Source: Planctomycetota bacterium
GTDB lineage: Bacteria; Planctomycetota; Phycisphaerae; Phycisphaerales; UBA5793
Direction: 5' to 3'
Length of the DNA: 64,000 nt
NCBI GenBank assembly: GCA_013112555.1
Contig: JABFGK010000002.1
Span: 1,364,001-1,428,000 of the forward strand
The notes beneath the pieces are model-generated. The model was not told the origin of the DNA. It was given only the letters and a program-made list of their open reading frames with translations, and made no database searches. Positions 511 to 20,033 of the stretch are shown here, one piece after another. A program made the position numbers and the translations under genes. Every line of letters begins with the position of its first letter. Positions within the stretch are counted from its first letter, which is position 1.

Positions 511-1098
511 TTACGCGGCACCACTGAACAGCCCGGCAAACCCCATGAAGGCCAGCGACAGCAGGCCGGCGATGATCATGTTCAATGCCGTCCCCTTGAT
601 GACGCCGGGGATGGTGGACAGTTCGAGTTCCTCACGCAGGCCGGCCATCAGCACCAGCGCCAGCGTGAAGCCGGAACCGGCACCGAGTGCAAAGGCGAGC
701 CCTTGAATCAGCGTGTATTCCTTGCTCGTCTGGAACAACGCCAACGCAAGGATGGCACAGTTCGTCGTGATCAGCGGCAGGAAGATTCCCAGTGCGCGGA
801 ACAGGGCCGGGCTCAGTTTCTTGATCACCATCTCAACAAACTGCACGGTGCTGGCAATCACCACGATAAACGAGATGACCTGCAGGTATGGGGCGTGCGG
901 CAGGATGAAGGCGTTGAGGAACGAGGCACAAAGCGACGTGATCACCATCACAAAAATCGTGGCCAGCCCGAGGCGGAACGCAGTGCTGATGCGGCTCGAC
1001 ACCCCCATGAACGGGCAAATGCCCAGGAAGTAACTGAGCGTGAAGTTGTTAATCAAGCACGCACCGACGAAGATCCAGATGAGGTCTCTCATAATCAT
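511..1098 (-). CDS. rnfA: Rnf electron transport complex subunit A
   Basis: RnfA is an integral membrane subunit of the ferredoxin:NAD+ oxidoreductase that couples electron transfer to Na+ or H+ movement. The protein is about 195 residues, the normal family length, and consists almost entirely of hydrophobic helices (about six). It starts with the family-typical LIWIFVGACLINNFTLSYF and FLGICPFMGVS, and carries a second Cys site in LPLITTNCAILA. RnfA and RnfE are inverted-topology homologues whose Cys pairs are known to bind an iron-sulfur cluster in the membrane. The ATG at 1098 overlaps the rnfE stop (ATGA); a second ATG lies two codons on at 1092. Last gene of the operon. Confidence 0.95.
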   Translation of the reverse strand: MIMRDLIWIFVGACLINNFTLSYFLGICPFMGVSSRISTAFRLGLATIFVMVITSLCASFLNAFILPHAPYLQVISFIVVIASTVQFVEMVIKKLSPALFRALGIFLPLITTNCAILALALFQTSKEYTLIQGLAFALGAGSGFTLALVLMAGLREELELSTIPGVIKGTALNMIIAGLLSLAFMGFAGLFSGAA

Positions 1099-1823
1099 GA
1101 TGCTGAACCGACCTCCCCTCCGGCGTTTGCTTCGCCATCGGCTCGATGGCGGCGCTTGGCCCGGGTCTGACCCGCCCAGTTGAAGACCAACAGGATCATG
1201 CCGAGCATCAGGAACCCACCCGGTGGCAGGATCATGATGACCCACGGTTGGAAGTTCGATCCCATGATCGGATACTTGAACAGCGTGCCGGACCCGAGAA
1301 TCTCGCGCGTGGCCCCAAGACACAGCAGGGCAAAGGCAAAGCCGATCGACATGCCGATCGCATCGGCCACCGCATACAGCGGCCGATTCCGACTTGCAAA
1401 CGCTTCCTGTCGCCCGAGGATGATGCAGTTAACAACGATCAGTGAGATAAACGCACCCAGGTCCTTATGGACGACGGGGAACGCAGCCTTGAGGGCCATG
1501 TCGGCCACCGTAACGAATGTCGCAATGATGATAATATAGGTACTGATGCGCACCTGCTTGGGAATGAAGGATCGCAGCAGTGAGACAAAGATGCTGGAAA
1601 ACACGAGGACGAAGGCAGTGGCTGCCCCCATTGCGACGGCATTGATGGCGCTGTTCGTCACGGCCAGCATCGGGCACATGCCCAGCACCTGGACGAATAC
1701 CGGGTTTTCCTTCCAGATTCCCTTCGCAAACTCACGGTACATCCGATCGGGATCGACGCTGCCGCCGCCGGCCTGTTGCTGGCTGCCCAACATGAGCGGG
1801 TTGGATGATCCTGAATCAGCCAT
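1095..1823 (-). CDS. rnfE: Rnf electron transport complex subunit E
   Basis: RnfE pairs with RnfA in the membrane core of the Rnf complex. It has about 242 residues and six predicted helices, with the conserved NPVFVQVLGMCPMLAVTNSA near the N-terminus and LIVVNCIILGRQEAFA in the middle, each with the Cys expected for the intramembrane Fe-S site. I start it at the ATG at 1823 (MADSGSSNP), which overlaps the rnfG stop by 8 bases; a longer open frame upstream lies inside rnfG and is low-complexity. The C-terminus ends in a charged, Ala/Gly-rich tail after the last helix. It overlaps rnfA by ATGA, so the two are almost certainly translationally coupled. Confidence 0.94.
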   Translation of the reverse strand: MADSGSSNPLMLGSQQQAGGGSVDPDRMYREFAKGIWKENPVFVQVLGMCPMLAVTNSAINAVAMGAATAFVLVFSSIFVSLLRSFIPKQVRISTYIIIIATFVTVADMALKAAFPVVHKDLGAFISLIVVNCIILGRQEAFASRNRPLYAVADAIGMSIGFAFALLCLGATREILGSGTLFKYPIMGSNFQPWVIMILPPGGFLMLGMILLVFNWAGQTRAKRRHRADGEANAGGEVGSAS

Positions 1824-2700
1824 TGTCCGGATCCTCCTCTCCCTCGGTGTCAGATTCAGCGTCCTCTGACGATTCCTCGGCCGGCGGTTGCTCGGCCTCT
1901 TGCTGCTGTTGCTGCTGCTCATCATCAATCACGATGAAGGCCGGTTCGTCGCCCGGCTTGGGCAGGCGTGGCAGCCAGTCGGCTGTGGACTTTTGGAGAA
2001 TCTTCACGACGGCTTTCGATGAGATCGTGGCCCCGGTGATGGCATCAACCTGGTTCTTTGCCGTGGGGTTGTCTTTCACCAACTCAATTGAGGGATCAAC
2101 GGTCAGGAACAGGAAGTTCTCCGCGAACTTCGGGTCCTTATAGATCTTGTCCCCGAGCCCGGGCGTCTCACGGCTTTCCAGGATCTCCATCCCGGTAATG
2201 TGACGTGGTTCGTCCGGCAATACAGCCCGCGGATTAAAGCCGTACAACAGTCGAATCGTGTCCTGGAAGCCGGCACCCGCTGCTTCAATGGCATAGCCGA
2301 TGAACTGTCTGTTCTCGTCGTAGGCACCGTAGATGACCAGGCCGGCCGGTGGCTCCTCCGAAGCCGATGATTCCTCGCCTGCCCCATCTGCTGATTTCTT
2401 GGGGGACCAGGCAACCAACTCCTCTTTATCTTCATCCCAGACCAGCGGCTGGAGTTGCGTTGAGTCGGGGACGACCTTGAAGACGGCTGCCTGCAGCGCT
2501 TCTGCGTTGTTCGCTTCGATGATCGGGAGCGTGATCTCATAGGCGGCTGCCAACAGCAATCCGGAGAGCATGGCTGCAATGGCCAGGGTGGCGACCAGCC
2601 GCACGCTGCTGACCTGTGAATCGACGGCACTGACGGTCAACTCGACCGACGTGGATTCGACGTCTGGTTGAGCGTCCGGCGGTGGGGTGTTGGTTGTCAT
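1816..2700 (-). CDS. rnfG: Rnf complex subunit G, covalent-FMN flavoprotein
   Basis: RnfG carries FMN bound covalently to a Thr on the outer face of the membrane. The protein has 294 residues: an N-terminal cytoplasmic tail, one membrane helix at about residues 33-55, then an FMN-binding domain. The flavinylation motif TGAT is at residues 222-225 (within VDAITGATISS), preceded by the typical ETPGLGDKI. Two additions are unusual: an acidic insert at about residues 88-118 and a low-complexity tail with a run of six or more Gln followed by an acidic stretch ending in DPDNG. The start overlaps the rnfD stop by ATGA. Confidence 0.93.
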   Translation of the reverse strand: MTTNTPPPDAQPDVESTSVELTVSAVDSQVSSVRLVATLAIAAMLSGLLLAAAYEITLPIIEANNAEALQAAVFKVVPDSTQLQPLVWDEDKEELVAWSPKKSADGAGEESSASEEPPAGLVIYGAYDENRQFIGYAIEAAGAGFQDTIRLLYGFNPRAVLPDEPRHITGMEILESRETPGLGDKIYKDPKFAENFLFLTVDPSIELVKDNPTAKNQVDAITGATISSKAVVKILQKSTADWLPRLPKPGDEPAFIVIDDEQQQQQQEAEQPPAEESSEDAESDTEGEEDPDNG

Positions 2701-3806
2701 GATGCCACCGCCTTTCCACCCTCAGTTCGGCCGAAGGCACGCGGCTGGCCGACGCGTTCGATCAGCGGGGTGGCTGCGTTCATCAGGAGGATGGCATACA
2801 TCACCCCTTCGGGCAGCCCACCCCAGTTTCGAATCAGGACGACGAGCAATCCGATCCCGATCCCGAACACGATGGTCCCGCGCGGGGCAATCGGTGAGGT
2901 CACCGGGTCGGTGGCCATGTACACGGCCCCGAACAGCAGCCCGCCCGACGTGAGCATGTGCAACGGGGTGGCAAACCGCTCTCCATTCAGCAGCCAGAGG
3001 ATGAGGCTGAAGATGCCGACGGTCGCCAGGATGGACAACGGGATGCGCCAGTCGAAGGTGCGGCGGATGGCCAGGATCAGGCCGCAGATGAGAATCAGGA
3101 TGGCACACGTCTCGCCGAGCGAGCCGGCGGTATTGCCCACCAGGAGATTGTTCAGTGACTCGGCCTGTCCTTCAAACTTGAACATGCCCAGCGGGGTCGC
3201 GGTCGTGATGGTATCGACGGGTGGCGGCGGTTGCATGAACGGCAGCGCGAAGTTGCTCGGCCGGATCGTCGAGAACTCGGCCACGGTGCCCTGGCTCGAC
3301 CAGGTGGTGATGGCCTGTGGGAAGGCAGCCTGCAGAAACGCTCGGCCGACAAGGGCCGGGTTGAACAGGTTCTGCCCGAGCCCGCCGAAGGCGAGTTTGC
3401 CCAGGCCGATGCCGGCAGCGCCCCCGAGAAACGCCATCCACATCGGAATTGCAGGCGGCAGACACAGGCCCATCAGAATCCCGGTCAGGACGGCCGAGCC
3501 GTCTTTCAGTGATCGTCCTCGCGGTTGCCCGCCGGGCGGCAGGATGAACTCGGTGAAGGCAGCCCCGGCAGTCGCTGCCAGGATGATGAGAATGGCACTG
3601 AGACCGAAAAAGTAGATCGCAGCCAGCACAACCGGGCCGAGTCCGAGGATCACATCGACCATCAACCGCGGGGTCGTGACGCCTTTGCGCAGAAACGGGC
3701 CGGCCTTCAGCAGCAGTTCCGGTGACGGCGGCGGGGAGCCACCTCCCGATGAGGACGGTGAGGAAACGGTCGGTCGAGATGGATCGTTTGGTGCGAGAGG
3801 CGGCAT
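2697..3806 (-). CDS. rnfD: Rnf complex subunit D, membrane flavoprotein
   Basis: RnfD is a multi-helix membrane subunit that, like RnfG, carries covalent FMN. The 369-residue product has a Pro/Ser-rich N-terminal extension of about 30 residues followed by around nine hydrophobic helices. The flavinylation motif is seen at DTITTATPLG (about residues 198-207 from this start), with the conserved GLGQNLFNPALVGRAFL upstream of it. I start at the ATG at 3806; an in-frame TTG at 3812 gives two more residues. It begins 87 bases after rnfC, the widest gap in the rnf part of the operon, and overlaps rnfG by four bases. Confidence 0.94.
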   Translation of the reverse strand: MPPLAPNDPSRPTVSSPSSSGGGSPPPSPELLLKAGPFLRKGVTTPRLMVDVILGLGPVVLAAIYFFGLSAILIILAATAGAAFTEFILPPGGQPRGRSLKDGSAVLTGILMGLCLPPAIPMWMAFLGGAAGIGLGKLAFGGLGQNLFNPALVGRAFLQAAFPQAITTWSSQGTVAEFSTIRPSNFALPFMQPPPPVDTITTATPLGMFKFEGQAESLNNLLVGNTAGSLGETCAILILICGLILAIRRTFDWRIPLSILATVGIFSLILWLLNGERFATPLHMLTSGGLLFGAVYMATDPVTSPIAPRGTIVFGIGIGLLVVLIRNWGGLPEGVMYAILLMNAATPLIERVGQPRAFGRTEGGKAVAS

Positions 3807-3893
3807 AGTCAATCTATGAGCAACGGATCCGCGCGGGATCAGTGGGGGGTTGGTTCGGTGTTCATCAACTAGCGTCCGGGCGCGCGACGCGTC

Positions 3894-5315
3894 CTACTTC
3901 TTCGTCTCGTTTCGTCGTTCCTTTGCCTGGCGTGCCCGAATGGCTGACTTGGCAGCACGGATCAAGTGCACGATGGGGATCCCGGAGGGGCAGGTAAATG
4001 TGCAGGCGCCGCACTCGACGCAATCCATGATGTGGACACCGTTGAGTTCATCAAGTCGGCCGACCCGAGCCAATCGAGCGAGTCGTGACGGATTGAGGAA
4101 GTTGCCGCATGCCTCAAGGCACCGCCCGCAGCGCACGCAGGCGTACTCCGATGAATGAACGACTTCCCGTTCGGTAAACGCGAGCAGCCCACTCGTGCCT
4201 TTGAGGACCGGCACGTCGAGCGAGGCCAGCGGTTGCCCCATCATCGGCCCGCCCATGATGACTTGGCGTGTATCCGTCCGCAGGCCGCAGTGTTGCAGCA
4301 CTTCGCGTACCGGGGTGCCGATCGGGACCAGCAGGTTCGCCGGGCGAATGACACCGGAGCCGGAGACCGTGAGCAAGCGCTCGATGACCGGTTGGGAGCG
4401 CAGGAAGTAATCACTGATGGCGGCCATGGACCCGACGTTGTTGACGACGATATTGAGATCCAGCGGCAGTTTGCCGGCCGGCACCTCCTCGCCGAACAAG
4501 GCCTTGATCAGCATCTTCTCAGCACCCTGCGGGTACTTCACTTTCAGCGGCATCACTGCCAGATCGAACGCAATCGGGCGGCCGGCCTGGGTCGCCTGAT
4601 CGCGATAACGGTCGCAGGCCTCTTCAAGCGCGACGATCGCATCGAGTTTGTTCAGTTCGACGCCGATGACCACCTGGTCGGCATTGAGTTTCGTGGCCAC
4701 CATGCAGGCACCTTGCACGACCGCATCCGGCTGCTCCACCATGAGCCGATGGTCGCAGGTGAGGTACGGTTCGCACTCACACCCATTGATGACGAGGCGT
4801 TCGCAGCGTTTCCCGTCCGGGAGTTTGTACTTCACGTGCGTCGGGAAGGCCGCCCCGCCCATGCCGACGAGTCCGGATTGCTGGACGCGCGCGATGAAGT
4901 CATCCGTTGAGAGGTCATACCAGTCCTTGAGTGTGCTGCCGGCCGGGCCGTGAATCGTCTGATCATCAAAGGGGTCGGCCTTGATTTCAATGGCCTGGAC
5001 CATCGAGCCGTTCGGGTGACGATGTGAGCCGACGTTGGCCACACGCCCGGCCACTGGGCTGTGCAGGGTCGGCGACACGAAGCCGCCCGGTTCTGCGATC
5101 ATCTGCCCGCGTGTGACCGATTGCCCGGCCGTGACGACGGCCCGACATGGTGCGCCGAGGTGTTGGGACAGCGGCAGGATATAACTCGACACGAACGGCA
5201 GGCGCTCGACTTCGAGATGCTCGGTGCGTTCCTTGTGTTCGTCCGGGTGGATGCCGTGTCGAAAACTCGCCGGCTGGATGACGACCCCGCCGCTGGTGAC
5301 TGCCGTTGTGGTCAT
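3894..5315 (-). CDS. rnfC: Rnf complex subunit C, NADH-site Fe-S protein
   Basis: RnfC is the peripheral subunit thought to exchange electrons with NAD(H). The 473 residues show a barrel-sandwich N-terminal region (HSPVAGRVANVG), the Nuo51-like nucleotide-binding stretch GLVGMGGAAFPTHVK at about 148-162, a SLBB-like region, and two [4Fe-4S] motifs near the C-terminus: CVRCGRCLEAC (about 393) and CVECGACTFTCP (about 432). The first motif has CGN in place of the usual CP. A basic tail (RQAKERRNETKK) closes the protein. Its ATG overlaps the stop of the large NifJ-like gene by ATGA, which ties that unusual gene into the rnf transcript. Confidence 0.95.
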   Translation of the reverse strand: MTTTAVTSGGVVIQPASFRHGIHPDEHKERTEHLEVERLPFVSSYILPLSQHLGAPCRAVVTAGQSVTRGQMIAEPGGFVSPTLHSPVAGRVANVGSHRHPNGSMVQAIEIKADPFDDQTIHGPAGSTLKDWYDLSTDDFIARVQQSGLVGMGGAAFPTHVKYKLPDGKRCERLVINGCECEPYLTCDHRLMVEQPDAVVQGACMVATKLNADQVVIGVELNKLDAIVALEEACDRYRDQATQAGRPIAFDLAVMPLKVKYPQGAEKMLIKALFGEEVPAGKLPLDLNIVVNNVGSMAAISDYFLRSQPVIERLLTVSGSGVIRPANLLVPIGTPVREVLQHCGLRTDTRQVIMGGPMMGQPLASLDVPVLKGTSGLLAFTEREVVHSSEYACVRCGRCLEACGNFLNPSRLARLARVGRLDELNGVHIMDCVECGACTFTCPSGIPIVHLIRAAKSAIRARQAKERRNETKK

Positions 5316-8300: not shown

Positions 8301-10182
8301 CCGGGTGAATCACGACGGCACAATCGAGCGGCGTGTCATCGCCGGGATCAAACAGGGTACCGGCGCCGGACCCGGATGCCTTGCTGCCGTGCTGCTTGTC
8401 GGGCAGAATACTGACCGTGTCGACGCACTGTTGATCGAATCGCTGCCAGGACAAGCCGGGCCGACTGCGGATCAGTGCCGGCTGCAGGAGGTCGTGGAGC
8501 AACGCGCCGGCCTCGCCGGCAATCGGCTCGTACCGACTCCCAGCCGGCCGACAGACGGCCAGCGAAAACGTACCGGCCGGCCGCAGATCGACCACGTTCG
8601 GCGTGACGGTGCCGGCAGACGCTGCGCCTGTGTGTGCTGTGATCCCGATCGTGGAGAGATCGGTATCGGAACGCCGCCGCAGCGCATCATGCAGTGCCTG
8701 CCGCTTCGGGTACTTGCTCTGTTTCCGAATGAAGTCCAGGCCCAGATAGTGGGTCGAATCGGTGAGCGACTCTGGATTCTTGTTGGCTTGTTCAACCAAT
8801 GCGAACAGGTCGGCTGCCTGTATTGGCCGGCCCCCACAGCCGCAGGCAATCGCAGCCAGGTGTTGCTGACTGCGTGATGCATGGCCCGCATGCTTCTGAA
8901 TGGCCGTGCGGATTTCTCGAGTCAGCGGCAGATCACCATCCGCGAGCGTATTGGCAATGCGTTCGAGAACGAGGACGGTGGGCACTGCGTTCAGATGCTG
9001 GGCAATGAGCGCGCCCGGGAACGGTCGAAGTGTGCGAATCCCGAGGACGCCGACCTTGAGATTGCGGGTCCGAAGCAGCCAGTCTGATAGCGCACAGGCG
9101 GTATCAACAAGTGAGCCCTGAGCCACGAGTACGATCGAGGCATCGCGCAGTCGGTGGGTGTGTACCGGGTGATAGGATCGACCGGTGAACCGCTCGAACA
9201 GTTTGAAGGCATCGGTCAGGATCGGCTCAATCTGCTGGTCGGAGTACACCTGGCGGGCAGCGGACCCGAGGGCCCACAGGTCGCGATCCTGCAGGCTCCC
9301 CAGCATCATGGGGCGTTCGAGATCAAACCAGCGCGGGATGCGACGCCGTTGCTCGCCGAACAACATCTGTTGAGCCACGGTGGGCGATGTGATGTGATCG
9401 GCCGGCTGCCCGACGAAACGACGCAGCATCTGCTGGTCATCTGCCAGTTTCAGATCCTGCAGGGCAATGGCAGTCTGTTCGCCATCCATACCGACGATGA
9501 CGGGGCACAATGCCTGTTCAGCAACTCGGCGGGCAATCAGTGCGAAGTCGGCAGCCTCCTGAACCGTGTTTGCAAACAACTGGATGCAGTTGGCAACGGA
9601 TGCGGCTGCATGCCATGCTTCATGCCCGGATCCAATCGCACAGGCGTGCCCGGCTGCAGCGCGGCAGGCGAGGGAGACAACCATCGGCGCGTTGCGGCCG
9701 GCTGCCGTGGCCAGTGTGTCAAGCCCGCCGGCCATGAGGTCGGTCCCGGACAGAGCGCACGAAGCGCGCTGGCCCGAGAGACTCAGGCCCAGGGCTGCGC
9801 TGAGCGTGCCGCGCGGGTCGAGCGTTTCGATGTGAAGCAGTGGGTGATCAAACGCATTGGCGTTGGATCGCAGGCCTTGTTGTTTCGCAAACGCGCGGGC
9901 GCCGGCCGAAGCCGGGAACGAACACCCGAGCACGCCGTCGGTGCAGAGGCAGGCGTCGAGATAGGCGGTCGCCGACATGCCGTCGAGTGCTGCCGGATGG
10001 CCGGGACTCGGTTTGATCGTATCGAGTTCGTCCTGTGAAACGTCTGCGGCGGTCGAGGCGAGCCCGGGGGCTGCATAGTCGGTACCGTGTGCCGTATCGG
10101 CCGGACTCGACGAGTCAGACTGACGGCGGCGATGAATGAGGCGTTTCAGCAGGTTGGCTGATGCAGATGCGAAGCTACTCAA
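5312..10182 (-). CDS. Giant NifJ/PFOR-like protein embedded in the rnf operon (two frameshifts)
   Basis: Reading one continuous protein needs two single-base corrections, near 7060 and near 6427, each explained by one extra G in a GGG run. The corrected product is about 1,620 residues; ordinary NifJ is about 1,200. The N-terminal part looks like PFOR domain I (substrate/pyrimidine-binding fold), then a transketolase-C-like domain, a gamma-like region and a Cys-poor stretch. The C-terminal part resembles the thiamine domain VI: VGNGSGLGTGELSQIAWALE aligns with the GDGWAYDIGYGGLDH type motif, and FPLFTYDPA with the NifJ PLYRYDP segment. Key metal/thiamine positions appear changed (GDG to GNG, NTGGQ to DLGGK), and the usual two ferredoxin clusters are not evident. 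It ends in a coiled coil. The start is TTG at 10182, overlapping the rnfB stop; the first ATG is 68 codons later. The 4-base overlap with rnfC suggests a partner of Rnf rather than an independent enzyme. Confidence 0.75.
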
Positions 10183-11029
10183 TGTGCACCCCCGTCAAGG
10201 CCACGGGCAGATCCTCGTGCTCAAACTGGCCGTGCTCCACCCATTGGATGGCCCCGGTTGGGCAGCGGAAGGTGGCCTCTGGCAGAGCCGGTCCCCCGGC
10301 GGCATAATCGACAACGGGCAGGTTGTTGCGCATAGTGATCAATCCCGGGGCTGCATCCTGAGCACATCGCCCGCAGGCATCGCAGGTCACCTGACAGACG
10401 GCCCGTGCTGCATCCCCTTCCAGCGGGGCACGGCATTGAACGATGAGTTTGTGACTGACCGGCAGGCACTCGAACAGGTCACGAGGGCAGGCATCGACGC
10501 AGTCGCCGCAGGCCGTACATTTGTCAACATGCACGACCGGGAGCCGGTCATGATTCATGTGGATTGCATCAAACGTGCAGGCCGTCATACAGTCGGCCAG
10601 ACCGAGGCATCCCCAGGCACAGCCCTTGCCGCCGCCACCGACCAGATGGGCGGCCCGGCATGATGCGTACCCTTCGTATTCCGCAATCTGACGGGCCTGG
10701 CTGATCCCGCCGGCACAGTACAGACGGGCCACTTGCTTCTCCTGGGCCCCGGCATCGACGCCGAGAAACGCAGCGATCGACTCGATCGTATCGGGATCGG
10801 AAACGGTGCACTTGCTCGGGGCGTTGATCCCGCTGACCAGTGATTCGGCAAAGGCACGGCACCCGGCTTCGCCGCAGGCCCCGCAGTTCGAGCCGGGGAG
10901 ATTCTCCTCGACCAGGTCGAGACGCGGGTCTTCCTCCACATGCAGAAAACGATGGGCCACTGCCAGGCCGATTCCGAAGAACAGGCCAAGTCCCATCATG
11001 ATTCCAACTGCCGTCAACGTCGTCAGCAT
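10175..11029 (-). CDS. rnfB: Rnf complex subunit B, polyferredoxin
   Basis: RnfB accepts electrons from reduced ferredoxin. The 284-residue product has one N-terminal membrane helix, the Fe-S domain NLPGSNCGACGEAGCRAFAE (about residues 44-63), then ferredoxin-like motifs: CAWGCLGLADCMTAC and CTACGDCVDACP. A further motif, CDACGRCAQDAAP, lacks the fourth Cys expected in CxxxCP, and what should be the next motif keeps only its last Cys (FRCPTGAI). At least one C-terminal cluster is therefore degenerate. The ATG at 11029 (MLTTLTAVGI) fits the membrane helix; a TTG start at 11053 is possible. It follows the ferredoxin-tailed PFOR-like gene by 41 bases and its stop overlaps the start of the giant NifJ-like gene. 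Confidence 0.92.
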   Translation of the reverse strand: MLTTLTAVGIMMGLGLFFGIGLAVAHRFLHVEEDPRLDLVEENLPGSNCGACGEAGCRAFAESLVSGINAPSKCTVSDPDTIESIAAFLGVDAGAQEKQVARLYCAGGISQARQIAEYEGYASCRAAHLVGGGGKGCAWGCLGLADCMTACTFDAIHMNHDRLPVVHVDKCTACGDCVDACPRDLFECLPVSHKLIVQCRAPLEGDAARAVCQVTCDACGRCAQDAAPGLITMRNNLPVVDYAAGGPALPEATFRCPTGAIQWVEHGQFEHEDLPVALTGVHIE

Positions 11030-11070
11030 CTGACTGCTTCCGGGGTAAGGCAAAGCGGTAGGGGGGGTCC

Positions 11071-13791
11071 TCAGTTGAACGGTTTGGCCCGTTTGATCAA
11101 CTCATCCACATTCGGTTCATCCGGGTTCAAGGGCAGTCCGGGATGGATGCAGCGACTCGGGCACTTCTCGGCAGCCTTGACAATCTGTTCATAGGTCCCG
11201 GCCTTCGGGTCGCCGATCGTTGCCTGCTTCGAGGCGTTGTAGACGAACACCTGCGGGTTGATTCCCATGCAGTCGTTGCAGGTGGTACACAATGGGCTGT
11301 CGATCCAGGGTTCTTCAGAAAACGGCTCATCGTCCTCGACCACGTCTGCGGCCGCCGGCTCCGATGATTCGTCCGTATCCACTGCGGTGTTTTCATCAGT
11401 TTCCTCGGCAGGGCCGGCCGTCGGAATCGGCCGAGCCACCGGTGTCATGGCGCTCAGGGCCGAGACATCCGTATTCAACAGTGACTGCGCCAGGCGTTGC
11501 ATGACCTCCTCGGCGGCGGTGGACCGAGCCTGTTGTACGTCCTCGGCATGGGTCCGGGCCAGCGCTTCTCGCTCTGCTGCGAACTCCTGGGTCAAGCGAT
11601 CACGTTCAGCCGCCACGGCCTGATCGACGTATTCGCTGCGCGTACCGGCCATCTCTTGTAGGATGCGCCAGAAGCCGATCCGATCCCGGCAGGTAAACGC
11701 GAGTCGGCGACGCATCACGAGGCGGCACATGCGCCCGCTGCCGTCCACGGCCCAGAGATACGGCACATGGTCAATGGCATCCCGAACGCTCAACTTGAGG
11801 TAGTCATCCAGCGGGATGAACTCATTGCCTTCACACTCATCCGGCAGAATACGGAACAGGTCCCGATACCGGTCCTCCATCAGTGCATAATCTGCGAACG
11901 TGAAGGCGAGTCTCAACTCCTGCTCGCCCTGATCGGCAGTGCGGCAGGGCAGGTCATACAGCGGCCAGTCTTCGGTCGGCTGCGGGTTTTCCGATGCATC
12001 AAAGCGGTGGGCCCAGGATATGCCGCGAGCCGGGTCATACTGGAATAACGGGTGTGCCCGGGCTTCGATGGCTGCCGACCCATGCAGCCACGGACCGAGT
12101 GCCGGCGTGGCGCGGGTCGTGGACAGACAGGAACAGACCACGTGCAGCGAGGCCCGGGTCGATTCGAGCGTCCGCTCGATGCCGCTGATGAAGTGGTCCG
12201 GCCGGGCGGGGCTGGACTGCAGGATCAGCGATTCCCGATGACTGATGCCGCGATACCCGAGTTCGAAACGCCAGCCGGTCAGTTGATCCTGATCGGTCGG
12301 CAGGCCTGGATTCATGCCGGGGTGCACGATGACCATGGCGGCCACCGGCCGACCGGACAGTTGCAGCCTCGAAATCGAGAGCATGGCCTGGCCATCCAGA
12401 TGGTCCGCTGCTTCCACGGCGAGGATGCGCGGCAGGCTGATCAACTCCTCGCGCGAAAACGCTTCCCAGTCAAAGGCCTTGAGCAGGTGGTCGTGACGCG
12501 GCGACTCGTATGAATTATCAAGTTCGAGTTCTGCCAGCCGCATCGTGCCGAACAACTGAGCATGCTCGCCGGCAATGGTTTCATACAGGGTCGCGGCCTC
12601 ATCGCAGACGGCCGCATCGGCACCGATCAAGTGGCATGACACACCGGGCGTGTCCGTCTGGAACGCGAGCGCGTCAGGCGTCACCACATGGAGCACCGGC
12701 TGATCCGTCACCGCCAGGAACTGCTCAAACAGTACAATCGCCTCTTCAATGCGAATTCGTCGAACGGGGTCCATCGGCTGCGCACCGCGCGACGGGCCGA
12801 TGATTCGTGCCAGAGAGGCCGGATCAACGAATTCAGCGCCGGCATCGCCGACCATCGACATCATGTTCTTTTCGCGCTTCTCGACCGGATCCTTGGACAG
12901 TTCGATCAGCAGCAGATCCTTGAGTTGCGTTCGAAGCCGGGACACCTCGGCTCGCAGGTCGGCATAGCGCTGGGCAGCAATGCGGGATGCGACGTGGAGG
13001 TACAGGTGCACCGATGTGATTTCCGACAAGCCGAGCAGGCGGCCTTCTTCGGGAATCAGACCGAGCAGTTTCGCTGTATCCGCGTCCCAGTTCCCGGCAC
13101 TCGTCGGGCTGAGGTCGAGTGAGCCCCGGGTGGCCTCGATCGCTTGCCTCACCGTGTCGAGCGCGCCGACCGGCGACCCGTCCCCCGATTCGATCGTCCG
13201 GCAGATGGACTTCTCAATGCGCGGCAGATTGTCCTTCAGGACGCGCGCGGCCTCGGGATCAGCGGCAAAGGACTCCACCAGGCCCGGGAGCCACTCATGC
13301 AGGGGCATGGTGTGACAGGCGCCATCCCCGGTGTCCGTCGCGGAAGTCGGGGTAAGGTACAGCGGATAATCATGTCGCAAGCGGTCTGCATTACGAAACG
13401 GGTGCAGGAGTGCCGGGATCACGTCCGCGCCGGGCGCGGTTAACGTGTCCGGTGATCCTGGATCATCGCGGTGAAATCGGCGTGCAGCGCGCAGCGACTT
13501 GATGATGCGATCATCATCGTCGGTGACGGCACGCCCAAGCGTCGGCAGGAGCGGCAAGTCGAGGCTCGGGTCTGACACCACGTCATCGCTCGGTGCCTCA
13601 GCCTTTCCTTTCCGCTGTCGAGCCTTGTTCAGCCACCCATCGAGTGAGTCGTCACGAGGAGACATCGTGTCGCTCGGCTCGCCCGTTTTTTGGGATTCGC
13701 TCGAATCCACGGTCTCGGCACCCAACACCTCATCACCTCCGGATTCGTCGGTCACCTGGTGCGATGACGTACTGCCTGATTCTGTGTGCAT
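11071..13791 (-). CDS. PFOR-like protein with C-terminal ferredoxin domain, unknown function
   Basis: About 906 residues from the ATG at 13791 (MHTESGSTSS), 17 bases after korB; a longer frame would overlap korB. An acidic, disordered N-terminal region of about 80 residues is followed by a large region I do not recognise. From about residue 460 it resembles the C-terminal region of the giant NifJ-like neighbour: HPLFQYDPA matches FPLFTYDPA there, WRILQEMAG matches WQTLQELAG, and both continue into a Glu/Ala-rich coiled coil. The last 75 residues form a small ferredoxin domain with CTTCNDCMGINPQ and, later, CPSRCIHPG, enough for one [4Fe-4S] cluster. I see no thiamine-binding motif. The position between korB and rnfB suggests an electron carrier or adaptor between the oxidoreductase and Rnf; that role is inference. 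Confidence 0.75.
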   Translation of the reverse strand: MHTESGSTSSHQVTDESGGDEVLGAETVDSSESQKTGEPSDTMSPRDDSLDGWLNKARQRKGKAEAPSDDVVSDPSLDLPLLPTLGRAVTDDDDRIIKSLRAARRFHRDDPGSPDTLTAPGADVIPALLHPFRNADRLRHDYPLYLTPTSATDTGDGACHTMPLHEWLPGLVESFAADPEAARVLKDNLPRIEKSICRTIESGDGSPVGALDTVRQAIEATRGSLDLSPTSAGNWDADTAKLLGLIPEEGRLLGLSEITSVHLYLHVASRIAAQRYADLRAEVSRLRTQLKDLLLIELSKDPVEKREKNMMSMVGDAGAEFVDPASLARIIGPSRGAQPMDPVRRIRIEEAIVLFEQFLAVTDQPVLHVVTPDALAFQTDTPGVSCHLIGADAAVCDEAATLYETIAGEHAQLFGTMRLAELELDNSYESPRHDHLLKAFDWEAFSREELISLPRILAVEAADHLDGQAMLSISRLQLSGRPVAAMVIVHPGMNPGLPTDQDQLTGWRFELGYRGISHRESLILQSSPARPDHFISGIERTLESTRASLHVVCSCLSTTRATPALGPWLHGSAAIEARAHPLFQYDPARGISWAHRFDASENPQPTEDWPLYDLPCRTADQGEQELRLAFTFADYALMEDRYRDLFRILPDECEGNEFIPLDDYLKLSVRDAIDHVPYLWAVDGSGRMCRLVMRRRLAFTCRDRIGFWRILQEMAGTRSEYVDQAVAAERDRLTQEFAAEREALARTHAEDVQQARSTAAEEVMQRLAQSLLNTDVSALSAMTPVARPIPTAGPAEETDENTAVDTDESSEPAAADVVEDDEPFSEEPWIDSPLCTTCNDCMGINPQVFVYNASKQATIGDPKAGTYEQIVKAAEKCPSRCIHPGLPLNPDEPNVDELIKRAKPFN

Positions 13792-13808: not shown

Positions 13809-14762
13809 TCAGATGGCAAAGCGGTCCAGAGCGGCATTCATGCCTCTGATCTTCTCTTCCGCCGTCATCCCGAGTCCCTGGGTCATGTAGTCCTCGTAGC
13901 ACGGCCTCGTTTCGTCCTGGAACAGGAGGCCGATCGGGATCTTGTCCTTGCGACCGGCAATCGCCAGCGCCTCATTCAGGTCGGCCGGGTCATGTTCCAG
14001 TTTGTTCGGGTACATCCGTGCAACGGAGGGATCCAGCGTGATCCCGTCATCGTCCGTCAGCAGGAGGACCTGTGACGGGTCCTTCTGGGCTTCTTCGTAG
14101 ACATCGGCGGTGTATTGCGGGCACCGCTGGTGAATGTGGACGAAACTGAGGCCGCGGTGCTTGTAGGCTTTGAGCAGGGTCGCATGAAGGTGGACCGGAT
14201 TCCAATCCACGGTCTTGGCGACAAACGAGACGTTCGTGAATCCGAGCGTTGCCGTCGCCGGGTTCAGCGGTGGCAGCCAGGCACCGCGCGGGTGTGTATT
14301 CGTGACTGTTCCCGCACTCGTGGTCGGTGACGTCTGCTTCTTTGTCAGGCCGTACACGTTGTTGTCAAACAGCATGACGACCATGTTCATGTTGTACCGG
14401 ATGGCATGGATCCAGTGGCCGGCACCGATCGAGCAGCAATCGCCGTCGCCGGTGGCGACCCAAATCGTCAGGTCGGGCCGGCGTGCTTTGACACCGCAGG
14501 CCACCGGCAGGGCTCGCCCGTGCAGGCCGTGGAAGCCATAGGTATGCATGTAGTGCGGGAAACGGCTGGAGCAGCCGATGCCGGACACGCACACCGTCTT
14601 CTCCGGTGCGAGTTGTTCATCACGGCAGATTCGCTGAACCGCAGACAGCACCGCATGATCACCGCAGCCGGGGCACCAGCGAGCGACACCACCCTCGTAA
14701 TCCTCCAACGAGAAGTACCGAGGCAGGACGTCCAGCGACCAGTCTTTCTTGAGTCCAAACAT
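13809..14762 (-). CDS. korB: 2-oxoacid (2-oxoglutarate):ferredoxin oxidoreductase, beta subunit
   Basis: The beta subunit binds thiamine diphosphate and a [4Fe-4S] cluster and, with KorA, converts 2-oxoglutarate plus CoA to succinyl-CoA while reducing ferredoxin. The 317 residues show the N-terminal RWCPGCGDHAVL (Cys at about 30 and 33), the intact thiamine motif GDGDCCSIGAGHWIH, and FDNNVYGLTKKQTSPT. Unlike in the giant neighbour, these catalytic elements are complete. It lies five bases after korA. The family also contains pyruvate and other 2-oxoacid enzymes; the KorB assignment rests on overall resemblance and on the gamma-alpha fused partner. Confidence 0.9.
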   Translation of the reverse strand: MFGLKKDWSLDVLPRYFSLEDYEGGVARWCPGCGDHAVLSAVQRICRDEQLAPEKTVCVSGIGCSSRFPHYMHTYGFHGLHGRALPVACGVKARRPDLTIWVATGDGDCCSIGAGHWIHAIRYNMNMVVMLFDNNVYGLTKKQTSPTTSAGTVTNTHPRGAWLPPLNPATATLGFTNVSFVAKTVDWNPVHLHATLLKAYKHRGLSFVHIHQRCPQYTADVYEEAQKDPSQVLLLTDDDGITLDPSVARMYPNKLEHDPADLNEALAIAGRKDKIPIGLLFQDETRPCYEDYMTQGLGMTAEEKIRGMNAALDRFAI

Positions 14763-14767
14763 AGTGG

Positions 14768-16777
14768 TCAGGCCCCCTGTCCATCATTGGTGTTGGGTGC
14801 AGCCGCAGCGGGCGTCTTCGGCCGGCCGGTCTCGTCAGCCAGATCCATCCCCTGGAGTCGTTGCATCACGACGTCATATATCTGGCCGGGTCGGAGCGGC
14901 TGGCCGGAGTTCAAGGACCAGTAGTCGATGTCCCGACGCGTGCGCCCTCGCAGAATCAGCGCCAGTTGGGCCGGGCGCCCCGGTTGCGTCTCAGTCATCA
15001 GCCCGCCGGGCGGATCGCTGTAGTTCGCCTCGACCGTCAGGATCTTGTCAAAATGCTGGAAGATGGCACGGAGCCCAGGTTCCAGAGGCCAGAGGAAGCG
15101 AATATGGAGTGATGACACCTTGTGCCCCTGCTCACGGGCCCGGTCCACAGCCTCCTCGATGGCCCCGAGCGTCGACCCCCAGCCGACGACCAGCAGGTCA
15201 CCTTCTTCATCCCCGTGAATCTTCGGCGGCTTGAGCGTCGAGCGCAGCGCTGCGAGTTTCCGGCTACGCATCTCGCACCCGTCGATGTGTGCTTCGGGGT
15301 CGTATGCCACCTTGCTCTGTCGCGTATGTGACAAGCCCGTGAGGACGTATTCCCCACCCCGCTGCCCGGGTATCGGTCGCGGGCTGATCCCGGTTTCCGG
15401 ATCCCAGTCGTAGGGGGCCGTCCCCTCTTTCCACGGAGATTGGTCAATCGGTGGGGCGAGCCACTCTTCCTTCGGTTGCGGCCGTGGAATCGGCTGAACG
15501 CCGGTCGCAAGGGCCGCATCGGTCAGCAGAATCACCGGGGTCCGGAATGCTTCGGCAATCCGACGGGCAGTAATCACCAGATGGAAACACTCGTCAATCG
15601 TGGCCGCGGCAATAATCGGCTTCGGTGCATCGCCCGGCGCGCCGTACATGGCAGCCAGCAGGTCGGCCTGTTCCGGTTTGGTCGGCAGCCCGGTGGCCGG
15701 CCCGCCTCGTTGCACGTCAACAATCACCAGCGGAACTTCGCTCATCACGGCCAGCCCGATGAACTCGGTCTTCAGTGCCAGGCCTGGCCCGGAGGTGATC
15801 GTGCAGGTCGTCTTGCCGGCATACGAGCACCCGATGGCAAAGCCGATCGCTGCGATCTCGTCCTCGGCCTGGTGCACGATCCCGCCTACCTGGTCAAAAG
15901 CGCCGGCCAGATAGTGTGAGGCCGAGGTGGCCGGTGTGATCGGGTACATCGACACGACTTCAATACCGGAGGCCATGACACCCAGTCCGAGCGCCTGATT
16001 GCCGTTGAGCACGATCAGATCCTGCTTCGTCTCCATTGGCGGGACTTCGAAGCAGAAGTCGATATGTTTGCGGGCGAACTCGACGCCACCCTGAACCAGT
16101 TGCTGGTTCGTCTCGACGACCTTGGCCCCTTTGCGGGCAAAGAGATTGTGCACTTCCTCCATCGCCATGGACGGATCACGCTGGTAGATCTCGCACAGCA
16201 TCCCGACGATGAACATGTTCTTGCCGAGTCGGGGGTTGGCCGTGTATTCAAGGCAGGCCTCCTCGATCGCCAGTTCATGCACGATCAGGCCGCGCTCGCG
16301 GAACATGGCGACAGCCTCGGCATAGGCCTGTCGGATTTCCTCCGAGGGATCCTTGGCCCACTTGTTCTCCAGCAGGAGAATCGTTCCCTCCCGATAGGCC
16401 CCCTGCTCGAGGCGGCCGTAGAGCACCTGCTCGTTGAACGCCACGACCAGGTCGGCTTCGTCACCCATATTGGTAATCTTGGTCGAGCCGAGTCGGATCC
16501 GAATCCCGCTGGCACCGGCTCGTGATCGAGCCGGCGGCTTGATTTCTGCCGGGATGATCTCGACCGTCCAGGCCCCGTTGCCCATCTTGGCCGTCACGGT
16601 GCCGAACGTCACCCCTGCCTTCTGCGCCCCTTCACCTGCGTCGCTGACAATCTCGACGATGTGCTGTGACACTCGAGTCGCCTGGTGCCCGGCCTGTTTC
16701 GCGCTGTGATCAGGGACAACGTCCTGATCATCAACGCACGACACTCCTGCCTTCTCGGCCATGCCTACCGCTCCCAT
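14768..16777 (-). CDS. korA: 2-oxoacid (2-oxoglutarate):ferredoxin oxidoreductase, gamma-alpha fusion subunit
   Basis: Partner of KorB and first gene of the operon. The roughly 665-residue protein has an N-terminal gamma-type domain (about residues 38-245, with VEIVSDAGEGAQKAG) fused to the alpha subunit, marked by NGNQALGLGVMASG, the substrate motif YPITPATSAS (about 279-288), TITSGPGLALKTEF and VDVQRGGPATGLPTK. This gamma-alpha fusion is the common bacterial KorA layout. Two starts are possible: ATG at 16777, or ATG at 16762 (MAEKAG), which has a GGGAG ribosome-binding site 8 bases upstream and looks better. The divergent sirtuin gene starts 287 bases away, so the operon promoter should lie in 16778-17064. 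Confidence 0.92.
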   Translation of the reverse strand: MGAVGMAEKAGVSCVDDQDVVPDHSAKQAGHQATRVSQHIVEIVSDAGEGAQKAGVTFGTVTAKMGNGAWTVEIIPAEIKPPARSRAGASGIRIRLGSTKITNMGDEADLVVAFNEQVLYGRLEQGAYREGTILLLENKWAKDPSEEIRQAYAEAVAMFRERGLIVHELAIEEACLEYTANPRLGKNMFIVGMLCEIYQRDPSMAMEEVHNLFARKGAKVVETNQQLVQGGVEFARKHIDFCFEVPPMETKQDLIVLNGNQALGLGVMASGIEVVSMYPITPATSASHYLAGAFDQVGGIVHQAEDEIAAIGFAIGCSYAGKTTCTITSGPGLALKTEFIGLAVMSEVPLVIVDVQRGGPATGLPTKPEQADLLAAMYGAPGDAPKPIIAAATIDECFHLVITARRIAEAFRTPVILLTDAALATGVQPIPRPQPKEEWLAPPIDQSPWKEGTAPYDWDPETGISPRPIPGQRGGEYVLTGLSHTRQSKVAYDPEAHIDGCEMRSRKLAALRSTLKPPKIHGDEEGDLLVVGWGSTLGAIEEAVDRAREQGHKVSSLHIRFLWPLEPGLRAIFQHFDKILTVEANYSDPPGGLMTETQPGRPAQLALILRGRTRRDIDYWSLNSGQPLRPGQIYDVVMQRLQGMDLADETGRPKTPAAAAPNTNDGQGA

Positions 16778-17064
16778 GATCCTGTGACATCAATAGGGGG
16801 GATGCCGATCATCGATCGTGGCGGTGGTCGGCAGCCGCGCAACTCAACAAGATTACCTACCATCGGCTCCAATTCAATTGCAATGCCATCAAACGGAGCA
16901 GAACTTCGGATTGTCACCGTTCATTTGGTGGTAACACCGGAGCCGATCATACTCTGGAACGTCGCGCGGTTCGCTCAACGGTGGACGGCGACTGCCAGCG
17001 TGTGAATCTGGGTTGTCCGGATCCACCGATGGGACACTTAAAACCCCGCTATACTTGTCCGCTT
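16778..17064. promoter_or_regulatory. Divergent intergenic region between korA operon and sirtuin gene
   Basis: Contains the promoters of both divergent units. On the plus strand TATACT at 17050-17055 is a good -10 candidate for the sirtuin gene; it ends only 9 bases before the ATG, which would give an almost leaderless transcript. I find no convincing -35 for it, and no clear promoter for the minus-strand operon. Confidence 0.4.
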
Positions 17065-17832
17065 ATGGGTATTCAACTTGATCCCGAACTGGTCGATGCC
17101 ATCCGCGCTGCGGAGTCGGTCGTCGTCATGACCGGCGCCGGCATCTCTGCAGAGAGCGGTATCCCCACCTTCCGCGATGAACTGACCGGCATGTGGGAGA
17201 ACTACGACCCGGAGCAGTTGGCAACGCCGCAGGCATTTGAGCGCGACCCGGAAACCGTGAGCCGATGGTATGACCAGCGCCGGGCCAACATTGCCAAGTG
17301 TGAGCCGAATGCCGGCCACCAGGCACTGGCGACGCTGGAACGCTGGCAGACGAAGGACCGGGGCCGCCGCTTCACCCTCCTGACGCAGAACATCGACGGC
17401 CTGCACCGTCGGGCCGGCAGTGCCAACGTCGTTGAACTGCACGGCACCATTTGGCGCTGGCGGTGTACCAAGACGGGACGCGAACGCGAGTACCGGCACA
17501 TCCCGTTCCCGTCCTATCCACCGCTGTCTGAAGATGGGGGATTGCTCAGGCCGGCCGTCGTCTGGTTCGGGGAGATGCTGCCCGAGCGTGAGATGATGAC
17601 GGCCCAGCGTGAATGTGAATCGTGCGATGTGTATTTCTCGATCGGGACCAGCACCCAGGTGTTCCCAGCCGCCGGGCTGATTCAGTTGGCCCACGCCTCC
17701 GGTGCCAGGACGGTCGAGGTGAACCCGGAGACAACGCCGGTCTCGAATCTGGTGGACTGGTCGCTCCGAGGCCCGGCCGGCACGGTCCTGCCGGGGCTGG
17801 TTGAACGGGTCATGCCACCAACCGGAACGTAA
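17065..17832 (+). CDS. Sirtuin (Sir2/CobB family) NAD-dependent deacylase
   Basis: Sirtuins remove acyl groups from lysine using NAD+. The 255-residue protein has the NAD motif TGAGISAESGIPTFRD (residues 23-38), TQNIDGLHRRAG (107-118), the catalytic His in VVELHG (His126) and RPAVVWFGE (162-170). A YxxR motif (Tyr69, Arg72) matches the signature of class III sirtuins that prefer succinyl or malonyl groups. The zinc module is odd: where the family has two CxxC pairs, only Cys134 is visible between residues 126 and 170. I start at ATG 17065 because the sequence upstream has no sirtuin character and TATACT sits just before it. Confidence 0.9.
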   Translation: MGIQLDPELVDAIRAAESVVVMTGAGISAESGIPTFRDELTGMWENYDPEQLATPQAFERDPETVSRWYDQRRANIAKCEPNAGHQALATLERWQTKDRGRRFTLLTQNIDGLHRRAGSANVVELHGTIWRWRCTKTGREREYRHIPFPSYPPLSEDGGLLRPAVVWFGEMLPEREMMTAQRECESCDVYFSIGTSTQVFPAAGLIQLAHASGARTVEVNPETTPVSNLVDWSLRGPAGTVLPGLVERVMPPTGT

Positions 17833-18024: not shown

Positions 18025-18708
18025 TTAGGCGCGGCGACGTCGGGTGCCGACCAGCAAGAGGCCGGCGGCTGCGAGCATGCCGGAGGCCGGCGACGGGACG
18101 ATGAACAACTGGTCCTGCACGCTGGCACTGGTCATGGCAGCCAGCTGCATCGTCTGGCCGGTTCCGTCAAGGCTGTCCAGCCAATCCTGGGCCGTGTCGA
18201 GGGCCGCGCCGCCGTTCCTTATACGGAAGTCGCCGTCATCGAGTGCCAACCCGTCGTCCATCACGATTTCCCAAACGGCTGCCTGGAAGGAATAGGCATC
18301 GTCATTATTGAACGAATCGGAGTAGTGACGCCCGAATAACTCGGCCATCAGGAGTGCTTTGGCATCGCCCATGCCGCTGCCGGGGATCGGTGCATCAGAC
18401 GGGTCGGCCACGATGAACTCATACTCATTGCCGTAGCCGATATTCTGTGTGACTTCGATGCAGAATGTAATGAACTCACCATCAGCGCCCGGGCCGGCGT
18501 AGTCGCCCCCAAGACGTGTCCAGTTGTAATACCCGGCCTTTGAATCGCTGTAGTTCGCCCCGCCGTCGACTGAATACTCGGCACCCTTGCCCGGCTCAAC
18601 ACTGTTGAAGCGTGCCTCGATGATGTCAGCATTCGCAGACTGACCGACCATAATCAACCCGGCAGCCGCCCCGGCCAACGACATGATGACTGTACTCTTG
18701 AGATGCAT
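18025..18708 (-). CDS. Secreted protein with PEP-CTERM-like sorting tail (paralogue 1)
   Basis: The 227 residues comprise an N-terminal signal peptide (cleaved near SANAD), a roughly 170-residue extracellular domain, and a C-terminal tail of PSPASGM, a hydrophobic helix and RRRR. That layout is the PEP-CTERM/exosortase design, although the PEP triplet is replaced by PSP. The body is closely similar to the gene at 19026-19721: both share IEARF(N/D)SV, YNWTRLGGDY or NWTRLGGDYD, AELFGRH and AVWEIV.DD. Such proteins are normally processed by exosortase and exported to the envelope or matrix. No exosortase gene is seen in this window. Confidence 0.75.
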   Translation of the reverse strand: MHLKSTVIMSLAGAAAGLIMVGQSANADIIEARFNSVEPGKGAEYSVDGGANYSDSKAGYYNWTRLGGDYAGPGADGEFITFCIEVTQNIGYGNEYEFIVADPSDAPIPGSGMGDAKALLMAELFGRHYSDSFNNDDAYSFQAAVWEIVMDDGLALDDGDFRIRNGGAALDTAQDWLDSLDGTGQTMQLAAMTSASVQDQLFIVPSPASGMLAAAGLLLVGTRRRRA

Positions 18709-19025: not shown

Positions 19026-19721
19026 TTACGGGAACTTCCGCTTTCTTGTCCGTCCTGCCAGCAGCCACATACCCACACCGGCCAGCATGCCGGAGGCCGG
19101 GGTCGGGATCATGAACACCTGATCCTGACGACTGTTGCTTCCCATGACGGCCAGATCTGCCGTCGGCCCGGTCCCGTCAATCGAGGCCAGCCACAGGTTC
19201 GCCCAATCCTGGGCGCTGCCGGCATCACGAATGCGGAAGTCGCCGTCTGCCAGATCGAGGTCGTCGTCATTGACGATTTCCCAGACGGCCAACTGGAACC
19301 CTGCGGCCTCGTCCTGCCCGAACCCGGACGACCAGTGACGCCCGAATAACTCTGCCAACCGATCGGCACGGTCATCGCCCATGCCCGATGTCGGCCAGGG
19401 TGCCTCGGTCGGCTCGATTACATTGAACTCATACTCTGCCCCGTAACTGACGTGCTGGACGAGATCAACGCAGTAGGTTACATACTGCCCTTCGGCCCCG
19501 CCTCCATCGTAATCGCCGCCCAGCCGGGTCCAGTTGAAGTTGCCGGCGACCGTCGTCTGATAAGAGTGGCCGTCATTCGTACTGAACTCGATGTTCCGCC
19601 CGGGGCTGACGCTGTCAAAGCGTGCCTCAATAAGGTCTGCCTGTGCCGATGCGGCACTGATCCCCACGATGGCAGTGGCTGCCAGACTGAGTGATGCTGA
19701 TGTCGTTCGATTATTCTTCAT
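19026..19721 (-). CDS. Secreted protein with PEP-CTERM-like sorting tail (paralogue 2)
   Basis: I start at ATG 19721, which follows a strong GGGGGAG ribosome-binding site by 7 bases; a longer open frame upstream has no protein character. The 231 residues have a signal peptide (ending about ASAQAD), a domain homologous throughout to the neighbour at 18025-18708, and a C-terminal PTPASGM, hydrophobic helix and RTRKRK tail. The two genes are same-strand tandem duplicates. The domain ends in a WEIV plus DGDFRIR segment seen in many planctomycete PEP-CTERM proteins; its function is unknown. Confidence 0.75.
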   Translation of the reverse strand: MKNNRTTSASLSLAATAIVGISAASAQADLIEARFDSVSPGRNIEFSTNDGHSYQTTVAGNFNWTRLGGDYDGGGAEGQYVTYCVDLVQHVSYGAEYEFNVIEPTEAPWPTSGMGDDRADRLAELFGRHWSSGFGQDEAAGFQLAVWEIVNDDDLDLADGDFRIRDAGSAQDWANLWLASIDGTGPTADLAVMGSNSRQDQVFMIPTPASGMLAGVGMWLLAGRTRKRKFP

Positions 19722-20033
19722 TCGTTTTCTCCCCCTGCACGCCCACGCCGGGACGATGACAGACACGCTGAATGCGGGATGACCGCTTTGTGTGTGTACT
19801 GCGAGTGATGTCCCTGTTATGAGACAGGCGCCCCTTCGTTGGCCCCGTCCGGAGAACCGGCTTCTCCGACGGTGCGGGAACAGCACTGCCTCGTCAACCC
19901 ATACGAGTTGACAATTCAGCCGGCTTCGGAGCAAGCGCAGAACAACCGCCCGGCAACTTCGCAAAACGGTTGTAAGGAATGTGGTTTATGACACCGTGGG
20001 TGTGACCGGGCTGCAAGGCCGGTCACCGGTGAA
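19722..20033. promoter_or_regulatory. Leader/promoter region of paralogue 2 and downstream of lysS
   Basis: About 310 bases without a gene. On the minus strand an imperfect hairpin at 19845-19872 (CCGTcCGGAGAA, loop, TTCTCCGACGG) lies about 125 bases before the paralogue 2 start, and a GTCAAC/GTTGAC inverted repeat lies further upstream (about 19900-19920); either could be regulatory. A second hairpin near lysS (GTGACCGG 20002-20009 with CCGGTCAC 20019-20026) may end the lysS transcript, although it lacks a T run. No riboswitch class is recognised. Confidence 0.35.

Follow-up and report, generated by a model that had tools for sequence, protein, structure and literature searches.

Two large proteins, here called P and D, are encoded in an operon that also carries korA, korB and all genes of the Rnf complex. 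As judged from their sequences, both are catalytically dead, and they are paralogues that descend from T, a fusion of pyruvate:ferredoxin oxidoreductase (PFOR) with a ferredoxin. On balance, we consider it probable that P and D together are a dead, split PFOR that has been reused as an electron adaptor between KorAB and Rnf.

The window, that is, the whole stretch of DNA that was analysed, comprises 64,000 nt of assembly GCA_013112555.1 (contig JABFGK010000002.1, 1,364,001–1,428,000; two contigs in the assembly, estimated completeness 92%), and positions are counted from its start. On its minus strand, from 16777 down to 511, the genes follow one another in the order korA-korB-P-rnfB-D-rnfCDGEA (Table 1). 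The gap between korB and P measures 17 bases, as does the gap between P and the mechanical start of rnfB. The plus strand of 11071–13791 is interrupted by 13 stops. No ferredoxin-like delta subunit is encoded for the KorAB of this operon, and P is no delta subunit of the KorD type, a small two-cluster Fer4 protein: it contains one Fer4_13 domain in a chain of 906 residues. A sirtuin-like gene (16981–17832, plus strand) adjoins the operon divergently, and two adjacent genes at 18025–18708 and 19026–19964 (minus strand) encode exported paralogues whose C-terminus is PEP-CTERM-like.

Table 1. Features of the operon and of protein P, in window positions
Feature	Position	Strand	Description and evidence
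korA	14768..16777	minus	2-oxoacid:acceptor oxidoreductase, fused gamma-alpha subunit; TIGR03710, E 1.5e-153, above cut-off
korB	13809..14762	minus	Beta subunit, TPP motif and cluster cysteines intact; TPP_enzyme_C, PFO_beta_C
P (P0001)	11071..13791	minus	906 aa, ATG start; C-terminal half of a split, predicted dead PFOR plus ferredoxin tail; ORF, homology, structure
P residues 80–245	13057..13554	minus	Remnant of PFOR domain V, both cluster loops deleted; alignment, hhalign
P residues 395–700	11692..12609	minus	PFOR domain VI (TPP-binding fold) without TPP motif; hhalign
P residues 580–588, HPLFQYDPA	12028..12054	minus	Aligns with YPLFRYDPDAG / FPLFTYDPA of T and D
P residues 718–773	11473..11640	minus	Coiled coil / long helix; AlphaFold2, alignment
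P residues 825–906	11074..11319	minus	Ferredoxin tail, predicted single [4Fe-4S]; Pfam Fer4_13, D. africanus ferredoxin I, cysteines in 80/80
rnfB	10175..11053	minus	Rnf electron-input subunit; FeS domain, rnfB models
D, first segment	6961..10182	minus	POR_N and PFOR_II, domain III not detected; one-frame orthologue in genome G008
D, middle segment	6330..6983	minus	After the first apparent frameshift; tblastn with orthologues
D, last segment	5312..6514	minus	After the second apparent frameshift; predicted dead domain VI, coiled coil, without ferredoxin tail
rnfC	3894..5315	minus	TIGR01945, E 2e-146
rnfD	2697..3812	minus	TIGR01946, E 7e-94
rnfG	1816..2700	minus	TIGR01947, E 4e-25, slightly under the curated cut-off
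rnfE	1095..1928	minus	Homology and position; mechanical start, probably too long
rnfA	511..1323	minus	Homology and position; mechanical start, probably too long

In the window, D is spread over three overlapping frames, with apparent frameshifts near 7.05 kb and 6.4 kb. Could P and D simply be decaying, functionless leftovers of a PFOR? The two frameshifts would fit such a view, which was already disfavoured and which we barely credit: one-frame orthologues with 30–56% identity exist across phyla, the flanks of the frameshifts are conserved like the remainder of D, and P is open over its full length in most loci. D occupies one frame in most relatives, and the one-frame D of genome G008 matches the three pieces of the window at 43, 56 and 52% (tblastn). 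The frameshifts are likelier to be assembly errors than real.

The first-pass annotation had assigned to the protein at 11071–13791 a PFOR-like segment, a coiled coil and a C-terminal ferredoxin domain, and each of these was recovered. The HPLFQYDPA segment corresponds in the alignment to the end of PFOR domain VI, residues 720–773 form one long helix in the AlphaFold2 model, and Fer4_13 of Pfam matches residues 830–883 (E 3.7e-7, 31.2 bits against a cut-off of 24.5). Both the segment and the coiled coil align with counterparts in the giant neighbour D, as had been proposed. Nothing besides Fer4_13 exceeded the cut-off in the Pfam search of P, which places domains I–III (POR_N, PFOR_II, POR) outside its chain, and a search of NCBIfam gave no match. 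Alongside this match, the tail displays the CxxCxxC...CP cysteines of a single-cluster ferredoxin: C835, C838, C841 and C877 are invariant across 57 aligned relatives of P, C881 is nearly invariant, and a few residues outside the tail are also invariant. We thus predict a single [4Fe-4S] ferredoxin domain, in agreement with the earlier proposal. The tail matches ferredoxin I of D. africanus (1FXR, 1DAX; Fer4_13) at 3e-6 in sequence and at a target TM of 0.79 in structure. Both have the form of a single [4Fe-4S] domain with the four cysteines in register, but ferredoxin I is a free protein of 64 aa and the tail the C-terminal domain of a much longer chain.

The relationship of P with PFOR is visible only via structure or intermediate sequences; when the PDB was searched with the sequence profile of P, ferredoxin was the sole match. 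The AlphaFold2 model of P, built on 57 sequences, reached a mean pLDDT of 84.7 and a pTM of 0.75 (a run on 6 sequences scored only 61.6). With this model, Foldseek retrieved 23 PDB structures at E <= 0.001, all of them chains of PFOR or oxalate oxidoreductase; the TM-scores, normalised on the whole chain, are low, so only part of the fold is matched. Profile comparison of residues 395–700 (hhalign) gave 1e-64 for T, 5e-39 for D and 3e-13 for a stand-alone PFOR, while 20 column-shuffled copies scored 0.13–0.87 against D. The domain V region, residues 80–400, yielded weaker matches (T, 1.4e-7; D, 8e-8), and tblastn aligned P directly with D at E 5.7e-15, with 29% identity over residues 507–772. 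P and D had been suspected to be partial paralogues, a claim that a lack of profile similarity between the two would have undone; the similarity found is significant and bears the claim out. The description of P as lacking the thiamine core stands for domains I and II and for every TPP-binding motif. It does not hold for the fold, since P retains a degenerate TPP domain of the PFOR type, detected by both hhalign and Foldseek.

From what kind of protein did this pair arise? Elsewhere in Planctomycetota, the rnf-linked relatives are mostly arranged as korA-korB-K-rnfB-T-rnfCDGEA. T, a protein of ~1640–1700 aa, is a complete PFOR by motifs (POR_N, PFOR_II, POR, two domain-V clusters, TPP domain) and ends in a coiled coil followed by a Fer4_13 tail homologous to that of P. 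The tails of P and T are 43–57% identical and aligned to their last residues (hhalign 5e-38). The rnfB–rnfC slot is likewise filled by T in Thiocystis violacea (L183) and an unclassified bacterium (L185). In a tree of the shared domain (71 sequences), the P clade, the D clade and the sisterhood of P and D each received a bootstrap value of 100, and the pair is placed among T; both are long branches, so that long-branch attraction could inflate their sisterhood. Given the homologous tail of T and the joint position of P and D among the T proteins, the tail appears to be ancestral and to have been lost in D. The first-pass annotation had supposed the opposite, with one of the two proteins gaining the tail. 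Such a gain in P after the P/D split would account for a tail-less D in the same operon, but with the tail of T already in the rnf slot, homologous and in register, and with P and D branching together among T, we regard it as extremely improbable. The idea that the two proteins diverged inside one operon is also too local, as the P/D pair is common to several phyla. Nor did the first-pass annotation take in the surrounding korAB and rnf genes, the dead state of both proteins or the clusters retained by D in other lineages.

The simplest history would be a duplication of T, after which P lost the front half and the active site, and D lost the active site and the tail. D sits in the rnfB–rnfC slot of T, and P has its tail; T is complete by motifs, whereas P and D would be its dead, divided descendants. 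Compared with PFOR/NifJ (TIGR02176; 6CIN, 1B0P), T has the same domain order, D retains domains I, II and VI, and P shares the domain VI fold and the C-terminal segment but is devoid of domains I–III, the TPP motif and the domain-V clusters. P further differs from PFOR by its coiled coil and an added Fer4_13 tail; no such tail is present in the stand-alone PFOR of 1619 aa that the window's own genome also encodes (G000:C1:760436–765295). An apparently working PFOR, T, inside an Rnf operon was observed at L055, L060–L071, L183 and L185, and Thiosymbion encodes a T-like PFOR of 1706 aa (L184:5175–10295) with the TPP motif present and no ferredoxin tail detected. The slot between korB and rnfB in T operons is occupied by K, a strongly diverged protein of ~335 aa (L061:10709–11707, L070:4450–5517 and others). 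K was considered as an orthologue of P and rejected: its profile similarity to P is faint (94%, 1e-7), yet P and T are far closer (1e-105), and K is too diverged to be placed.

The loss of catalytic residues is consistent across the pair. The TPP motif GDG...YSNTGGQ is present in 16 of 19 T sequences (some T are fragments), but in none of 49 D and none of 80 P, and the domain I pocket motifs, YPITP and GEHA, are absent from all 51 D. KorB carries its TPP motif in 62 of 65 loci, and within the set a complete 2-oxoacid site is found in KorAB alone. Of the 51 D, 42 have the full four cysteines of one domain-V cluster and 43 those of the other; the D proteins that have lost most of them are those of the window's clade (Phycisphaerae) and close relatives. 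Both domain-V cluster loops are missing in P, and its four tail cysteines are present in 80/80 sequences (the best 80 of 560 relatives). Taken together, the motif losses in P and D, the kept cluster cysteines and the intact KorB suggest that selection retained the electron-carrying parts and let catalysis go.

Two other explanations bear on this pattern. P and D might be structural or assembly factors for Rnf or KorAB that carry no electrons, the tail cluster serving as a stability or sensing element; the dead active sites of both proteins, and the loss of the domain-V clusters from D in Phycisphaerae, would agree with this. We judge it unlikely, as the tail cysteines in every P examined, and nearly all eight D cysteines outside Phycisphaerae, are kept far more strictly than the protein remainder. 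Might P or D instead catalyse another reaction in an altered TPP fold, and so represent new chemistry rather than an adaptor? The fold is intact in the AlphaFold2 model and the structure matches, and a few residues of P outside the tail are invariant; however, the TPP-motif region is variable within P and within D and contains no new conserved motif in replacement, which makes this reading highly improbable.

How widely is P distributed? A single-sequence scan of genome contigs with P gave no match, and no P was found in sampled genomes of the window's own family. The same-family absence suggested that P is an isolated oddity, a notion overturned by a wider, alignment-based scan of 84,980 species genomes: it identified 560 relatives, the best 80 of which are all P-type. 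The genome scan was seeded with two short tail patterns; tail-less proteins were therefore found only through their context. Carriers among these best 80 of 560 include Phycisphaerales and other Planctomycetota, Woeseiaceae, Saprospiraceae, 'Deltaproteobacteria', Eisenbacteria and many sulfur-oxidising Gammaproteobacteria, the latter represented by Thiodiazotropha, Thiosymbion, Thiomargarita, Thioploca, Thiocystis violacea DSM 208, tubeworm symbionts and Sedimenticola. Genomes with the ten-gene set are found in sulfur-oxidising Gammaproteobacteria, Saprospiraceae, 'Deltaproteobacteria' and Phycisphaerae, and most relatives with enough flanking sequence, from several phyla, display the order korA-korB-P-rnfB-D-rnfCDGEA. 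Of 68 testable loci, 54 have KorB as the immediate upstream neighbour of P (median gap 22 bases), and 53 have RnfB as its immediate downstream neighbour (median gap 13 bases). In many Gammaproteobacteria, a NuoF-like gene and an FAD_binding_2 flavoprotein are found upstream of korA (L081:2471–6056, L117:2289–5198), joined in L081 by a Fer2/Fer4 protein; these genes perhaps encode an NAD-linked flavoprotein complex.

In genomes in which the genes are dispersed, D keeps to rnf and P is often found with korAB. In Thiocystis violacea and Thiosymbion, D is still located between rnfB and rnfC, with P elsewhere; in Thiomargarita, D lies beside rnfB at a contig end, and P is located elsewhere, directly after korB. 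These placements point to an association of P with KorAB and of D with Rnf. Both D-type and T-type rnf clusters occur in Thiocystis violacea, which also has P. In genome G761 (L137, L185), P accompanies KorAB and a T-type rnf cluster, and no D was detected.

Is P then a dedicated ferredoxin subunit of KorAB only, replacing the KorD of four-subunit enzymes and serving several acceptors, with D a separate Rnf accessory and no KorAB-Rnf supercomplex? Its company with KorAB where it is apart from rnf, as in Thiomargarita, the lack of a ferredoxin-like delta subunit in this KorAB and the presence of P in G761, with no detected D, all point that way. We hold this to be rather doubtful: P and D are sister paralogues, their branching matches broadly, and D is still found in every genome with a detached P except G761. 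The same exception, together with the 14 of 68 loci in which P is not directly downstream of KorB, counts against our preferred view of P and D as an adaptor.

That adaptor view starts from the homology of the proteins and their descent, the dead sites, the conserved cluster cysteines, the intact KorAB motifs, the gene order and the rnf slot of D; from these we infer a physical complex of P, D, KorAB and Rnf, its substrate, and the path and direction of the electrons. KorAB, the operon's working enzyme, would oxidise a 2-oxoacid, probably 2-oxoglutarate. The ferredoxin tail of P would receive electrons from the KorB cluster, a transfer that in most lineages may run via the two clusters kept in D. 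From the tethered tail the electrons would enter RnfB and drive the Rnf ion pump with reduction of NAD+, or the flow would run in reverse. P, whose gene follows korB, would dock to KorAB, and D, whose gene separates rnfB from rnfC, would dock to Rnf; the two probably pair like the halves of a PFOR. D of the window's clade is without most domain-V cysteines, so D cannot serve as an electron wire in general. The electrons may flow either towards NAD+, with ion pumping, or in reverse, for reductive carboxylation. The window's own genome yielded no SucA over the threshold, which renders a ferredoxin-linked 2-oxoglutarate step plausible; SucA is present in other carriers of the set. This genome also has a second KorA-like gene (G000:C1:235670–237490), so the KorAB of the operon is not the sole one.

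Known enzymes of the KorAB kind use free ferredoxin. KorA and KorB of this operon are of that kind; the difference here is a tethered ferredoxin encoded beside them. All six genes of Rnf (RnfABCDGE; structures from A. woodii, A. vinelandii and C. tetanomorphum) are present in the window, but D interrupts the operon between rnfB and rnfC, and korA-korB-P stand in front of it. In the A. woodii Rnf structure, RnfB is the docking and entry site of ferredoxin (PMC11889175), and the extra cytoplasmic subunit of A. vinelandii RNF1 is a different one (PMC12174285). A study of a Riftia tubeworm symbiont reports that a 'PFOR-like' gene and dimeric korAB drop together in expression under limiting sulfide; the label is that of the study, and the gene may or may not be D or P (PMC11636981). 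According to another report, dimeric korAB adjoins TCA genes in a tubeworm symbiont (PMC6315080). Our literature search, which covered the main texts of open-licence papers, found no description of P or D; a prior description is possible.

We tentatively put forward the broader idea that KorAB, P, D and Rnf may together constitute a single membrane-bound 2-oxoglutarate:NAD+ oxidoreductase equipped with a tethered ferredoxin of its own. In such an assembly, the dead, split PFOR would be the wire and dock that directly couple an enzyme of the TCA cycle (or reverse TCA cycle) to an ion pump, across Planctomycetota, sulfur-oxidising Gammaproteobacteria and symbionts. With P, D and T all present in Thiocystis violacea DSM 208, the adaptor idea can be tested in a named strain. 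The pair offers a clear case in which an enzyme's active site appears to have been lost and its electron-transfer parts retained. Rnf is thought to meet free ferredoxin; if the proposal is true, some Rnf pumps would be hard-wired to one enzyme, which bears on the ferredoxin-linked 2-oxoglutarate step and its direction in Thiodiazotropha, tubeworm symbionts, giant sulfur bacteria and Planctomycetota.
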